Assembly (NCBI GenBank): GCA_013619105.1
Contig: JABXKU010000001.1
Span: forward strand, 90,996 to 154,995
Length of the DNA: 64,000 nucleotides
Origin: Desulfuromonadales bacterium
GTDB lineage: Bacteria > Desulfobacterota > Desulfuromonadia > Desulfuromonadales > Syntrophotaleaceae
Direction of reading: 5' to 3'
Each line of letters starts with the position of its first letter. The stretch's first letter is position 1. Shown here one piece after another: positions 4,075 to 9,145 of the stretch. The position numbers and the translations under genes were made by a program. The notes under the pieces are model-generated. The model did not search any database, had not been told where the DNA came from, and was given only the letters and a program-made list of their open reading frames with translations.

Positions 4075-4638
4075 ATGTTAAACATGGCTGACAGGATGCC
4101 GACAAAAAAACTCTTATTGTTTGTTGTGGTCTCGGGCCTGTTGATCTTGCTTGTTGCCAGCCTCTGGCATGTGGACTCGTGGCGTGGAGGGGCTCTACCT
4201 GAAACAAGGGCACTGGTCGGCGGCCCGGCTCCCGGTTTTTCACTGCCGGACCTGTATGGCAGTCAACGCTCCCTGAGTCAGTTCCGGGGTCATAACGTAC
4301 TTCTTGTCTTCTGGGCTTCCTGGTGTCCCCCCTGCCGTGTTGAGATGGCATCTCTGCAACGTTTGCATGACAACTCTGCCGTTCAGAATCTCAAAGTGAT
4401 AGCGGTTAATGTGGGAGAAACAAAGGGTCAGGTTGCCTCTTTTGTGGATCGGCAGCAGCTTTCTTTGCCGATCCTTTTAGATGCAGGGAACGATGTTCAG
4501 CAGCTCTATGGGGTGAATCAGCTGCCTCTGGCTTTTCTTGTCGATGGCCAGGGCAGAATTATTGCCCGGCACCTTGGTCTGCGGGACTGGAATTCCAGCG
4601 ATGTAATTACCGAGCTTAACCAACTCAGCGGAGAGTGA
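4075..4638 (+). CDS. TlpA/ResA-like membrane-anchored thioredoxin
   Basis: Periplasmic thiol-disulfide oxidoreductase of about 187 residues. An N-terminal membrane anchor (about residues 12-31, very Leu/Val rich) is followed by a thioredoxin fold of the AhpC/TSA-Redoxin type, with active site WCPPC at residues 83-87 preceded by VFWAS and a cis-Pro region (QLPLAFLVD). WCPPC is typical of TlpA/ResA/CcmG proteins that keep apocytochrome c cysteines reduced. The next gene, a CcdA-like electron carrier, starts 4 bases later and would supply the electrons, so the pair forms a cytochrome c maturation or thiol-reducing module. Start uncertain: ATG at 4075 is preceded at 4 bases by GGACGG; 4084 and 4099 are alternatives. 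Confidence 0.88.
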   Translation: MLNMADRMPTKKLLLFVVVSGLLILLVASLWHVDSWRGGALPETRALVGGPAPGFSLPDLYGSQRSLSQFRGHNVLLVFWASWCPPCRVEMASLQRLHDNSAVQNLKVIAVNVGETKGQVASFVDRQQLSLPILLDAGNDVQQLYGVNQLPLAFLVDGQGRIIARHLGLRDWNSSDVITELNQLSGE

Positions 4639-4642
4639 TTCA

Positions 4643-5392
4643 ATGAGCAATGCTGCCGATATTACCTTGTGGATCGCATTTTCAGCCGGGGTTCTGTCCT
4701 TTTTCTCCCCCTGTGTCTTGCCTTTATTACCTTCCTACATAACCTATATTACCGGTCTCAGTTTTGGCCAACTGCAGGAGGCGCACCCTGGTGCCCGCGT
4801 TCGGTTGACGGTGTTGTGCCACTGTCTGATCTTTATTGCCGGATTCTCCGCCGTGTTCATTTTACTGGGGGCCTTGGCCGGGATAGCTTCAGCCTCTTTT
4901 CATGGGCAGCTGCAGACGGTGCTGGTCTGGGTGCAGAAAATTGGTGGAATTCTGATCTTTCTTTTTGGAATCCATCTCAGTGGTTTGTTTCATTTCGGTA
5001 TTTTGCTCGGTGAGAGACGGATTCATTTGCATCGCAAACCGGCTGGGTTTGCCGGCACCTTTGTGGTTGGATTGGCCTTTGCAGCCGGTTGGACGCCGTG
5101 CATCGGCCCGATTCTAGGCGCTATTCTGGCTTTAGCTGCAGGGTCATCAGCGGGTCCTGGCCACAGCATTTTGTTATTGACGGTTTATTCAGCGGGTTTA
5201 GGTTTACCCTTTTTGTTAGCGGGTTTGCTCTTTCATAGTTTTCTGTCCTTTTTCAAGCGTTTTCGTAAGTACATACGGTTGGTTGAGGTTTTTACCGGTG
5301 CCTTGTTGATGGTGGTGGGCATCATGCTGTTTTTCGATATGTTCGGTATGGTCACAGGCTATCTGTACCGCCTGCTGCCTCCTGCTGGCTAA
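4643..5392 (+). CDS. ccdA: CcdA-like thiol-disulfide interchange membrane protein
   Basis: Six-helix inner-membrane protein (249 residues) of the CcdA/DsbD-transmembrane family. It passes reducing equivalents from cytoplasmic thioredoxin to periplasmic thioredoxin-like proteins. The two redox cysteines are visible: C24 in FFSPCVLPLLPSY and C153 in AAGWTPCIGPILG, one in each three-helix repeat. The length matches stand-alone CcdA rather than full DsbD, which carries extra periplasmic domains. The ribosome site GGAGAG overlaps the end of the upstream thioredoxin gene, so the two are translationally linked. The next promoter (for fur) begins just after this gene. Confidence 0.9.
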   Translation: MSNAADITLWIAFSAGVLSFFSPCVLPLLPSYITYITGLSFGQLQEAHPGARVRLTVLCHCLIFIAGFSAVFILLGALAGIASASFHGQLQTVLVWVQKIGGILIFLFGIHLSGLFHFGILLGERRIHLHRKPAGFAGTFVVGLAFAAGWTPCIGPILGAILALAAGSSAGPGHSILLLTVYSAGLGLPFLLAGLLFHSFLSFFKRFRKYIRLVEVFTGALLMVVGIMLFFDMFGMVTGYLYRLLPPAG

Positions 5393-5412: not shown

Positions 5413-5440
5413 TTGACAGTCATTATCCGCTGCTGATATT
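5413..5440 (+). promoter_or_regulatory. candidate promoter of the fur-feo operon
   Basis: A perfect -35 hexamer TTGACA (5413-5418) is followed 15-16 bases later by a weaker -10 (TGATAT or GATATT, 5434-5440). It sits between ccdA and fur, and the Fur-box palindrome begins 3 bases after the -10, where it would cover the transcription start. Confidence 0.6.
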
Positions 5441-5442
5441 TT

Positions 5443-5457
5443 TGAAATTCAATTTCA
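5443..5457 (+). promoter_or_regulatory. Fur box, perfect 7-1-7 inverted repeat
   Basis: TGAAATT-C-AATTTCA is a perfect 7-1-7 palindrome, the geometry of a Fur operator. It lies directly downstream of the -10 and 12 bases before the fur ATG, so Fur with Fe(II) should block transcription of fur and the feo genes behind it. Assignment as a Fur site is inferred from symmetry, spacing and context. Confidence 0.72.
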
Positions 5458-5468
5458 TGGGAGGGGTG

Positions 5469-5900
5469 ATGACCGACAAACGTGTAATGTTTCGCGAATT
5501 CGTGGTTCGCAAAGGGCTGAAGTGGACGAAGCAGAGGGAAGTTATTCTCGAAGTATTCCTCAGTTCTAAAGAACACCTTTCCACCGAAGATCTTTATCTA
5601 GAAATTCGCAGCAAAAACCCTCATATCGGCTACGCTACGGTCTACCGCACTCTGAAACTTTTTGCTGAGTGCGGGATCGCTGAAGAGCGGGATTTCGGTG
5701 CTGGGCAAGTCCTTTATGAATTGAGCCACGGCGGGGACCATCACGACCACCTTATCTGCACCGGTTGTGGAGCCATCATCGAGTTTGAGGATAAGCGAAT
5801 TGAAAAGCTGCAGGAACAAGTGGCTCAAGACCATCAGTTCACCATAGCCAGTCACCGACTGGAGATCTTTGGCCTGTGTGCCAAATGCGCACCCGGCTAA
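5469..5900 (+). CDS. fur: Fur-family ferric uptake regulator
   Basis: Metal-sensing repressor of 143 residues. The N-terminal winged helix contains GLKWTKQREVILEVF and the recognition region GYATVYRTLKLF. The C-terminal dimerisation/metal domain has the HHDHLIC motif (about 91-97) and two CxxC pairs (C97/C100 and C137/C140) that normally hold structural zinc. The context (ferrous transporter 62 bases downstream, Fur-like box at the promoter) favours Fur itself over Zur or PerR. The start is ATG 5469, with GGAG five bases upstream; an in-frame ATG at 5442 would add nine residues and overlap the operator. Expected to be autoregulated. Confidence 0.92.
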   Translation: MTDKRVMFREFVVRKGLKWTKQREVILEVFLSSKEHLSTEDLYLEIRSKNPHIGYATVYRTLKLFAECGIAEERDFGAGQVLYELSHGGDHHDHLICTGCGAIIEFEDKRIEKLQEQVAQDHQFTIASHRLEIFGLCAKCAPG

Positions 5901-5962: not shown

Positions 5963-7927
5963 ATGGCTTCTCAGAACAAAGCACCCAAGGGTGACCGTAA
6001 GGTTATTCTGGTTGGAAACCCCAATGTTGGCAAAAGCGTTCTCTTTAATGCCCTGACCGGGGCTTATACCGTTGTATCCAACTATCCTGGGACCTCTGTG
6101 GCCGTAGCGCGCGGTCATTGCGAAATCAATGGCCAGCGGTACGAAATTCTCGATACCCCCGGTATGTATTCGCTGCTGCCGATCACCGAGGAAGAGCGAG
6201 TCGCTCGCGAGATGCTGCTCCTCGAAGACGCCCATGCGGTTATTCATGTTCTCGATGCCCGTAATATCGAGCGCATGTTACCCATGACCCTCCAGCTTAT
6301 CGAAGCTGGCCTTCCGGTGATTCTGTTGGTCAATATTCTTGACGAAGCAGAACGCTCCGGCATGTCTATCGATATCCCGCTGTTGCAGGAGAAACTCGGT
6401 ATCCCGGTGGTGGGAGGGGCGATGCGCAGCAAGCGCGGACTGAAGGAGGTTCGGCAGGCTATCGCTGAGTGTGGTGATGACGATTTGCCGTCTTTTGGCT
6501 ACTCCTCTGATCTGGAGAAGGATATTGCCAAAGTAACGGACACCCTGACTGGGGATTATCGATTGGATCTTCGTGCTCTGGCTTTACTGCTGTTGCAAAA
6601 AGACGACGAGATTCTAGCCCTTGTAAGTGACCGGGAGGGTGACAACTTTGAGCAGGTGCAGCAGGCCGCTGCTGAAACCGCCTTTGAACATCGTTTCGAT
6701 CTTCATTTACGCATCAGCCTGGAACGTAAGCGGGTATGTAAAGGACTGCTGGCGGAAACCGTGCGTCAGCCTGAGAATAGGCGACTGCGCTTTGCCGATC
6801 GCCTTTCTGCCTGGACGACCAATCCCTGGACCGGTTTCCCGTTGTTGATTCTGGTGCTCTATTTCGGCATTTATCAATTTGTTGGTAAGTTCGGGGCTGG
6901 TGTGCTGGTCAATCTGTGCGAGGGCTCCCTGTTTGAAAACTTCCTCAACCCCTTAGCTATAAGCCTGATTGATCGTTTTGTACCCTGGTACTGGTTGCGG
7001 GAACTGGTCGTCGGTGAATACGGTATCTTTACCCTCGGCGTCCGCTATGCGGTGGCGTTGGTGCTACCCATTGTCGGCACCTTCTTTTTGACCTTCTCTG
7101 TCATTGAGGATGTCGGCTATTTCCCACGGCTGGCCATGTTGGTGGATCGTGTTTTTAAAAAAATCGGGCTTAACGGGCGAGCGGTGATTCCCATGGTCCT
7201 TGGTTTCGGTTGCGATACCATGGCGACCATGGTAACCCGTACCCTGGAAACGGTTCGTGAACGAGTGCTGGTGACCCTTTTGCTGGCATTGGCGATCCCT
7301 TGCAGTGCTCAGTTGGGGGTTATTCTCGGCCTTCTTTCTGGCGTTCCGGGGGCCTTACTGGTCTGGACTGTCTGCATCGTTTTGATCTTTTTGCTGGTCG
7401 GTTTTCTTTCGGCCCAAGTTTTGCCCGGCGAGCGGCCGATGTTCTACATGGAGTTGCCGCCCATGCGGCTGCCTCAATTCCACAACGTGCTGGTGAAGAC
7501 CATGACCCGCATGCAGTGGTACTTTCTGGAAATCTTTCCCCTGTTCATTATTGCCTCCGTTCTGCTGTGGGCAGGCAAAATGACCGGTGCCCTGGAGTGG
7601 TTGGTGCGCGGCATGACCCCGGTTATGGGAATGCTCGGTTTGCCAGAGGAGGCTTCGGCCGCCTTCATTTTCGGCTTCTTCCGCCGTGATTTTGGGGCTG
7701 CCGGGCTTTACGACCTTCAGGAAGCAGGGCTGTTGACACCGGTTCAGTTGACGGTGGCGGCGGTAACCATGACTCTCTTTGTGCCCTGCATTGCCCAGTT
7801 TCTGATGATGAAAAAAGAGCGGGGCTGGAAGGTCTCTTTGGGTATCTTCCTATTTGTTACGGTACTAGCTTTTTCCGTCGGCTGGTCGTTGAATATTTTC
7901 CTGCTCTTTACCGGCATACTTTCATGA
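5963..7927 (+). CDS. feoB: ferrous iron transport GTPase FeoB
   Basis: Inner-membrane Fe(II) transporter of 654 residues. The N-terminal G domain shows G1 GNPNVGKS (18-25), G2 threonine in NYPGTSVAV, G3 DTPG (64-67) and G4 NILD (124-127), followed by a GDI-like helical spacer to about residue 270. The membrane part contains paired Gate/nucleoside-recognition regions: GYFPRLAMLVDR, then GFGCDTMATMVTRTLE with the conserved cysteine, and a C-terminal LFVPCIAQFLMMKKERGWK. Length is slightly short of the 700-770 seen in many species. The start ATG has no clear Shine-Dalgarno sequence, so translation may depend on the A/T-rich leader. No separate feoA precedes it; a FeoA domain instead appears fused to a regulator two genes downstream. 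Confidence 0.96.
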   Translation: MASQNKAPKGDRKVILVGNPNVGKSVLFNALTGAYTVVSNYPGTSVAVARGHCEINGQRYEILDTPGMYSLLPITEEERVAREMLLLEDAHAVIHVLDARNIERMLPMTLQLIEAGLPVILLVNILDEAERSGMSIDIPLLQEKLGIPVVGGAMRSKRGLKEVRQAIAECGDDDLPSFGYSSDLEKDIAKVTDTLTGDYRLDLRALALLLLQKDDEILALVSDREGDNFEQVQQAAAETAFEHRFDLHLRISLERKRVCKGLLAETVRQPENRRLRFADRLSAWTTNPWTGFPLLILVLYFGIYQFVGKFGAGVLVNLCEGSLFENFLNPLAISLIDRFVPWYWLRELVVGEYGIFTLGVRYAVALVLPIVGTFFLTFSVIEDVGYFPRLAMLVDRVFKKIGLNGRAVIPMVLGFGCDTMATMVTRTLETVRERVLVTLLLALAIPCSAQLGVILGLLSGVPGALLVWTVCIVLIFLLVGFLSAQVLPGERPMFYMELPPMRLPQFHNVLVKTMTRMQWYFLEIFPLFIIASVLLWAGKMTGALEWLVRGMTPVMGMLGLPEEASAAFIFGFFRRDFGAAGLYDLQEAGLLTPVQLTVAAVTMTLFVPCIAQFLMMKKERGWKVSLGIFLFVTVLAFSVGWSLNIFLLFTGILS

Positions 7928-8100
7928 AGTGTGGGTTTTGTGGCCGTCATTTCACGCCAGCGGAAGCGGCGGAGAAAGAACCCTGCGGTCGCTGTCTGCG
8001 CGGATGTCAAAAGTCCTATTGTCCCTATTGCAGTTATGGCAATCCAATGATCCCAGGGTTTTTAGATCGCTGGGTTAAAAATAAAGATAAGAAGGAGTAA
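7924..8100 (+). CDS. 58-residue Cys-rich zinc-ribbon-like protein of the feo operon
   Basis: Small gene whose ATG overlaps the feoB stop (ATGA) and whose 3' end carries the AAGGAG ribosome site of the next gene, so it is tightly embedded in the operon. The product starts MKCGFCGRHF and has seven cysteines: C3/C6, C21/C24, C28 and C33/C36, in three CxxC pairs plus one single. A proline/glycine patch and a lysine-rich tail (VKNKDKKE) follow. No membrane segment or signal peptide is seen, so a small cytoplasmic metal-binding protein (zinc or iron) is likely, perhaps filling the small-accessory role that FeoC or FeoB-associated Cys-rich proteins have elsewhere. No named family can be asserted. 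Confidence 0.8.
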   Translation: MKCGFCGRHFTPAEAAEKEPCGRCLRGCQKSYCPYCSYGNPMIPGFLDRWVKNKDKKE

Positions 8101-8103
8101 GCG

Positions 8104-8751
8104 ATGCAAAATTCCAGTAAGGCCGAGGATATCCTTGAGGCGCTCTGGATTGCCGTGGTTGAAGAGGGAGACAATTCCATCTCTTTGCAGGATCTGCAGG
8201 TTTCAGTTGATGATCAGCCCCTGGTTGAATTGGCCGAACAGGCCTTGGTCGAAGTCAAGGGAGCCAGGGTCTATTTGCGCCATGAAGGTCGCATGGAAGG
8301 GCAAAAAGTTGTTCGCCGACACCGCCTTTCCGAGCGGTTGATGATGGACATATTCGACCTTAAAGGAGCAAATGCCAACAGTAAGGCCTGTGAATTTGAA
8401 CATTTGCTCAATGAAGGAATTGACACCAAAATATGTACCCTGCTTAATCATCCGACAACCTGTCCCCACGGCAAGGCTATCCCCCCGGGTCCCTGTTGTT
8501 TTGAGGCTCGTAAAAAAGGGGGCGCCGGAGTGGTATCCCTGACGGAACTCAAAGTTGGCGAGTCCGGTGAGATTGCTTATTTGTCGACCGAAGATCCCAA
8601 AAAAATGCAAAAGCTCATGTCTATGGGGGTTTTGCCGGGTAGTAGCATTCGGCTAAGCCGTACTTTTCCCGCCTATATTTTTCATGTTGGGAATTCCGAA
8701 TTTGCCGTGGATGAGCAGTTGGCCCAGGAAATATTTGTTCGACAGTCCTGA
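8104..8751 (+). CDS. DtxR/MntR-like metal regulator fused to a FeoA domain
   Basis: 215-residue protein. Residues 1-65 look like the winged helix of DtxR-family repressors (EDILEALWIAVVEEGD). Residues 70-135 resemble the DtxR metal-binding/dimerisation region, with candidate ligands H73, E77, C96, E99 and H100 and a Cys/His-rich stretch (HPTTCPHG, GPCC). Residues 145-212 form an SH3-like FeoA domain (VSLTELKVGESGEIAYL, LMSMGVLPGSSIRL). It could be a metal-responsive repressor, or mainly a FeoB partner using its FeoA domain; the operon position supports a link to FeoB either way. The ribosome site AAGGAG overlaps the end of the preceding small gene. A long terminator closes the operon 45 bases later. 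Confidence 0.82.
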   Translation: MQNSSKAEDILEALWIAVVEEGDNSISLQDLQVSVDDQPLVELAEQALVEVKGARVYLRHEGRMEGQKVVRRHRLSERLMMDIFDLKGANANSKACEFEHLLNEGIDTKICTLLNHPTTCPHGKAIPPGPCCFEARKKGGAGVVSLTELKVGESGEIAYLSTEDPKKMQKLMSMGVLPGSSIRLSRTFPAYIFHVGNSEFAVDEQLAQEIFVRQS

Positions 8752-8796: not shown

Positions 8797-8847
8797 AAAC
8801 CCGTTTGACGCTCTTGCTGACAAGATGCGTTAAACGGGTTTTTATTT
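8797..8847 (+). terminator. long-hairpin rho-independent terminator of the fur-feo operon
   Basis: AAACCCGTTTGACGC pairs with GCGTTAAACGGGTTT (one G-U) and an inner TCTTG/CAAGA arm closes a CTGA tetraloop, giving about 20 base pairs with a single bulged T, followed by a T-rich tract. It is unusually long for a simple terminator and may also protect the 3' end. Confidence 0.92.
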
Positions 8848-9145
8848 TGATGTCTGCTTATGAGTTCCCCGAAATTGCATTAACAAAGATCAAAATAACT
8901 TTTCAGTATCTCCACAATTTGTTAAGGTAGGGCAACCTTGAGGAATTATTAATTCAAGGTGGTTTGCATGCACCATAAATTAGCTGCAACCTAAGTAGTG
9001 CGATGTGATAGTGATTATTCTCCCCTATCTATAAAACGGATGATCAATTAGTGTCCTCACCGTTATTCAAATTTCAAATAGGCTGTTTTGTCGGAACCTT
9101 TTATAACTTCATGTCTTGTCATATCTTCCTGGTGTTGTATCGACA
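8848..9145. other. A/T-rich intergenic region before the hybrid kinase
   Basis: About 300 bases without a gene. It holds an inverted repeat ACCTTGA (8935-8941) / TCAAGGT (8954-8960) with an A/T core, which could be an operator or small hairpin. Scattered A/T hexamers could serve as promoter elements for the kinase, but I see no convincing -35/-10 pair. Confidence 0.5.

Follow-up and report, generated by a model that had tools for sequence, protein, structure and literature searches.

Directly behind feoB-1 in a Desulfuromonadales genome lies a gene whose product of 58 residues carries seven cysteines. The open reading frame is a real gene. Its product is rather likely to be a soluble, cytosolic, predicted metal-binding accessory subunit of the FeoB-1 Fe(II) importer, translationally coupled to feoB and working with FeoA. 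This reading is favored because of the linkage of the gene to FeoB, the fusions of its domain to FeoA, the conservation of its cysteines, the AlphaFold model and a FUR-box-like palindrome in front of the operon, and because the genome holds no gene for FeoC or for a PF12669 protein. The window is the whole stretch of DNA that was analyzed (64,000 nucleotides).

The gene and its operon

The operon and its signals occupy the following positions of the window.

5413..5442, + strand: sigma-70-like promoter TTGACA-18-TATTTT, 5' of fur (consensus match only)
5442..5458, + strand: palindrome TTGAAATTCAATTTCAT, a predicted Fur operator by its likeness to the delta-proteobacterial FUR box WTGAAAATNATTTTCAW
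5469..5900, + strand: fur, ferric uptake regulator family (PF01475, 138.6 bits; start picked by its Shine-Dalgarno sequence)
5963..7927, + strand: feoB-1, ferrous iron transporter of 654 residues (PF02421, 183.4 bits; TIGR00437, 437.5 bits against a cut-off of 315.65)
7924..8100, + strand: seven-cysteine gene, 58 residues (ATG start; open reading frame reading)
8092..8097, + strand: AAGGAG, ribosome site serving the downstream gene, within the last two sense codons of the seven-cysteine gene
8104..8751, + strand: protein of 215 residues with a DtxR-type metal-binding/dimerization domain (61-127) and a FeoA domain (144-213)
8797..8848, + strand: GC-rich hairpin with a T-rich tract after it, likely terminator of the operon (predicted fold)

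The cysteines of the small protein are C3, C6, C21, C24, C28, C33 and C36. Six of them form three CxxC pairs (CGFC, CGRC and CPYC) and C28 stands single. The feoB gene ends at 7927, and the ATGA at 7924-7927 gives a four-base ATG/TGA overlap between the two genes. The AAGGAG at 8092-8097 lies six bases ahead of the downstream start at 8104. The highest 19-residue Kyte-Doolittle mean is 0.04, so the protein is without a membrane segment. The initial annotation had described three CxxC pairs plus a single cysteine, a four-base overlap with feoB, an internal ribosome site that serves the following gene and the lack of a membrane segment, and the reading agrees with it on each of these points. Since no Shine-Dalgarno sequence proper to the gene was seen before its ATG, its translation is probably coupled to that of feoB.

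The FUR box consensus of delta-proteobacteria has been given as WTGAAAATNATTTTCAW (PMC545781), and TTGAAATTCAATTTCAT agrees with it at 14 of the 16 specified positions, counted by eye. Over the core 15 bases compared, the palindrome is identical at two further loci (L040 and L041) and differs by one change at a third (L042). At the other end of the operon, the segment 8781-8850 has a fold energy of -31.5 kcal/mol; a simple terminator scan missed the hairpin within it. Because of the FUR-box-like palindrome 5' of fur, the neighboring genes and the closing hairpin, the small gene is most likely part of an iron-repressed fur-feoB-Cys-feoA unit. The DNA-binding domain PF01325 was found over cut-off in none of eight downstream proteins scanned (that of the window at 8104-8751 and seven relatives, at L015, L028, L050, L058, L065, L066 and L074; best E 0.11). 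The DtxR-like/FeoA protein retains its metal-binding/dimerization and FeoA domains; rather than a repressor, it may be FeoA joined to a dimer domain of DtxR origin. Directly 5' of fur, positions 4075-5392 encode a thioredoxin-like protein, whose motif is WASWCPPCR, together with a CcdA-like membrane protein, as read by eye.

In a regulon table of 2004 the operon appears as 'feoB1 - R' for two Geobacter species and as 'fur2-feoB1 - R' for Desulfuromonas, with the small gene named in neither entry (PMC545781). Geobacteraceae FeoB-1 has been described as clustering apart, with a specificity that is not assignable (PMC2700814).

Distribution and linkage to FeoB

Homologues of the seven-cysteine gene were found by a single-sequence search in 71 of 98 related genomes, and FeoB was sought separately in the same set. 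At 72 of the 73 homologue places the gene directly follows a FeoB that shares 50% or more identity with that of the window; the lone exception, in G063, is cut short where its contig ends. The small gene is present in each of the 70 genomes having a FeoB of this class, and no such FeoB occurs among the 27 related genomes that are without it. Across the 98 relatives, two of 74 FeoB places of the class are without the gene. One is an N-terminal contig fragment (G002) and the other a second copy, 54% identical to the FeoB of the window (G070), where the region behind it (L136) was checked and the gene is absent. Second FeoB copies of the same class in G003 and G058 are each accompanied by a second seven-cysteine gene of their own. 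The loci read around the gene have FeoB before it and a FeoA-domain protein after it, save at contig ends.

Two phyla were searched with profiles. Profile A1, built from 21 members, matched 35 of 297 genomes of the phylum of the window. Twenty regions behind FeoBs without an A1 match were then read, and as 11 of the 20 held diverged versions, the phylum was searched again with A2, a broader profile of 113 members. It gave matches in 66 of the 297 genomes, at 72 places. Sixty-three of these places were strong (E <= 3.7e-9), with 62 of them behind FeoB; none of the nine weak ones (E >= 2.6e-5) was behind FeoB. The ten non-adjacent places, namely the nine weak ones and the strong one in G221 (E 1.4e-15; its contig yielded no FeoB above the limit of the search), were set aside before counting. 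The gene accompanies 29 of 31 FeoBs of the phylum that are at least 50% identical to that of the window, one of the two misses being at a contig end, and 33 of 53 FeoBs with 41-47% identity; the other 20 of the 53 have no match. A second FeoB in G318 (L155, contig C78; 57% identical to that of the window) has neither a Cys gene nor an obvious FeoA/DtxR-like neighbor in the 1.5 kb behind it.

The second phylum was that of the MAG 'Bacillota bacterium'. Profile A1 matched 22 of 299 genomes there, and 21 of the matches stand behind FeoB. The next gene in these 21 places has a FeoA domain, except at L094, which meets a contig end. Profile A2 matched 29 of the 299 genomes, four of them (L180-L183) without the Cys pattern. 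These four and the remaining A1 match (L096) were taken as chance, all five being without the Cys pattern and L096 also without an adjoining FeoB. The plasmid collection gave no match.

Among the genomes compared, the seven-cysteine gene tracks one FeoB lineage. Some FeoBs of the wider group evidently do without it, namely the second copies in G070 and G318 and 20 of the 53 FeoBs with 41-47% identity.

Selection, cysteine conservation and predicted fold

The open reading frame is short and has no Shine-Dalgarno sequence of its own, as might be expected of a chance open reading frame. Five sequences from its own genus gave a pooled pS of 0.355 and pN of 0.048 (pN/pS 0.134), with 41, 14 and 124 differences at codon positions 1, 2 and 3; six sequences of a second genus gave a pN/pS of 0.159. 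Purifying selection and conservation behind feoB in related genomes, on which the initial annotation had let the case for the gene depend, are both present. None of the seven cysteines is missing from any of the 72 complete members that plain similarity brought up, any of the 30 that A1 found in the phylum of the window or any of the 21 genuine members of the second phylum. The selection, the deep conservation and linkage behind FeoB (72 of 73 places) and the invariant cysteines leave chance with a vanishingly small probability, and it was ruled out.

Of the 125 distinct sequences collected, 113 went into alignment A2, with identity to the window protein down to 20%, and 12 close relatives were omitted. 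The alignment has exactly seven invariant cysteines; this invariance is partly by construction, since members were collected by a Cys-spacing pattern, and the independent count is the 72 of 72 found by similarity. The proteins at L143 and L144 have the cysteines at a shifted spacing and fell outside the collection pattern. Residue 32, before C33, is H in 67, K in 30, C in 14, R in eight and Y in six of the 125 sequences; close relatives mostly have H, many distant members have C, and the window has Y. Because this residue varies, an eighth ligand is possible in some members and is not required. Members at L137-L146 and L148, behind FeoBs of 43-47% identity, have a cysteine before CPxC (for example CCPRC), which gives them eight cysteines and a possible second four-Cys site.

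An AlphaFold2 model built with A2 had a mean pLDDT of 78.4 (84-92 over residues 1-40) and a pTM of 0.57. Strands lie around both outer CxxC knuckles in the model, those at 30-32 and 39-41 flanking CPYC. Foldseek returned nothing below E 1.6 with this model. VIA-align gave the Sec23 zinc finger as its best match (Z 2.7, weak), tied with LysW (Z 2.1, rmsd 2.0 over 34 residues); scores as weak as these do not establish the fold as known or as new. A solved relative in the PDB was sought by profile searches and rejected, as only weak matches to unrelated zinc proteins appeared (best E 0.02 with A1, and 0.00052 with A2, the latter summed over several weak C2H2 pieces). For the window protein, no Pfam model scored over its cut-off, and none of NCBIfam matched at E<=1.

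Weak matches to generic zinc-ribbon models were obtained with other members of the family. At E<=0.01, RUBY_RBDX was matched by eight of 113 members (best 6.3e-6), Rubredoxin by one (0.0019) and the double zinc ribbon PF12773 by 18 (best 2.2e-4); the window protein matched none of the three at E<=1. The protein shares with rubredoxin and the double zinc ribbon (PF00301, PF21349 and PF12773) the CxxCG and CPxCG knuckles, with beta strands modeled around them. It differs from them in three extra invariant cysteines in the middle, and its conserved cysteines number seven against the eight ligands of PF12773. With low certainty, the model suggests a zinc-ribbon-like fold. RNA polymerase subunit P and ribosomal zinc proteins also came up weakly in profile searches, as would suit regulation of the operon by a small zinc-ribbon factor acting in transcription or translation. 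These weak matches stem from the Cys spacing, and both the FeoA fusions and the close coupling to FeoB speak for a role with the transporter, so that such a factor is very improbable.

Proposed role and comparison with other Feo partners

The Cys domain and a FeoA domain occur in one open frame, with the Cys domain N-terminal, in five genomes.

L057: FeoA fusion in the phylum of the window; an internal start is possible
L077, L085, L087 and L176: FeoA fusions in the other phylum; simple two-domain proteins

The FeoA domain scored 50.3-54.4 bits in the four fusions scanned with Pfam, against a cut-off of 23. The protein at L178, which has a tail of 26 residues, was excluded from the fusion count. 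A model of a fusion predicts two domains joined by a disordered linker (pTM 0.50) and shows no docking. Long open frames had also hinted at fusion of the Cys domain to FeoB; their reading gave separate or overlapping genes. Because the gene travels with one FeoB branch and is sometimes fused to FeoA, its product is probably a missing working part of the FeoB importer.

How the accessory subunit would act can be outlined from the pattern of its cysteines. Together, the pairs C3/C6 and C33/C36 would make up a Cys4 site of the zinc-ribbon or rubredoxin type and so keep the fold in place. C21, C24 and C28, with the non-conserved fourth position at residue 32, would form a more open site, which could take Fe(II) or an iron-sulfur cluster. 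Filling and emptying of the open site at the cytosolic face, beside FeoA, would tune FeoB-1 to cytosolic iron, much as has been suggested for FeoC where FeoC exists.

The same knuckles (CGFCG and CPYC followed by G or S), the weak zinc-ribbon matches of other members and the unconserved fourth ligand of the inner site would also suit a purely structural zinc ribbon that stabilizes FeoB-1 or holds FeoA to it, with iron neither sensed nor moved; Salmonella FeoC, which protects FeoB from proteolysis (PMC8749426), offers a parallel. Such a role leaves three invariant cysteines beyond one Cys4 site unexplained, which two zinc sites would explain in some members, and we regard it as unlikely, if a serious contender. 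The gene order feoB - Cys - DtxR-dimerization/FeoA, the FeoA fusions and the Cys-rich, soluble nature of the protein would instead fit an iron carrier that passes Fe(II) from FeoB-1 to the FeoA/DtxR-domain neighbor or to Fur. Most Bacillota-type operons, however, have a FeoA match alone behind, without the DtxR-type metal domain, and a carrier seems distinctly improbable. The accessory subunit with an open, iron-responsive site is the reading we prefer.

Two kinds of small protein are already associated with feoB. FeoC (PF09012) is a winged helix. Like the seven-cysteine protein, it is a small, Cys-bearing, cytosolic accessory encoded directly behind feoB in the same direction. It has been described with one four-Cys motif, Cx4Cx2Cx5C in E. 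coli (PMC8749426). A FeoC would be expected to carry this motif once, at the C-terminus, against the three CxxC pairs and single cysteine found here, and to hold a [4Fe-4S] cluster and bind FeoB. PF09012 gave no match at E<=1 in the window protein and none in the whole genome, with E. coli and four other controls positive. The FeoB_associated family (PF12669) resembles the seven-cysteine protein in being a small Cys-rich open reading frame behind feoB that is sometimes joined to Feo proteins. It has been called a membrane protein with the pattern Cx3-5Cx2-3Cx6-8C (PMC8749426), whereas the seven-cysteine protein has no membrane segment, another Cys pattern and fusions to FeoA. PF12669 gave no match at E<=1 in the window protein and none in the whole genome, with a control that was positive in only one of 14 and below cut-off. 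Membership of either family was rejected, as the initial annotation had proposed; its further suggestion of a metal-binding FeoB accessory gains support from the FeoB-lineage linkage and the FeoA fusions.

The same genome has a further partner of this kind behind its other feoB.

L184 (own genome, contig C65), 2745-2897, - strand: Cys-rich open reading frame of 51 residues directly behind feoB-2, in the feoA-feoB-2 locus

This family of 51-55 residues is present behind feoB-2 in nine of nine further loci fetched (L185-L193). It carries CxxCxC-CxxC-CxxCxxC, with eight invariant cysteines and an invariant tryptophan (alignment A5), and has no Pfam or NCBIfam match over cut-off. It is like the seven-cysteine protein in being short, soluble, Cys-rich and directly behind a feoB, but differs in its eight-Cys pattern and is apparently unrelated; a profile comparison of the two families gave a match of ten columns only. 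Because FeoB-1 and FeoB-2 of one genome each adjoin a different unnamed Cys-rich protein, one may tentatively suppose, as a rather doubtful generalization, that a soluble Cys-rich iron-responsive partner is general in FeoC-less FeoB importers, with unrelated proteins recruited repeatedly, and that the open three-Cys site of the FeoB-1 partner (Fe(II) or Fe-S) is a feedback gate.

About 95% of surveyed Feo systems have been reported to consist of FeoA and FeoB only, and FeoB switching and the role of FeoC have been described as unsettled (PMC8749426). The main text of the same survey of FeoC-like elements does not mention Geobacter, Deltaproteobacteria or Desulf- names (PMC8749426). No paper naming the seven-cysteine gene was found in the open-access literature, and the gene is tiny and easily overlooked. 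The FeoA fusions, the specificity for FeoB-1, the spread to a second phylum and the unrelated Cys-rich partner of the other feoB go beyond the initial annotation. If many systems listed as FeoA and FeoB only hide a Cys-rich subunit, the two-component picture would in part be an artefact of annotation. In Geobacter-type iron reducers, the seven-cysteine protein would be a small, testable partner for FeoB-1, and the FeoA fusions a ready-made construct.
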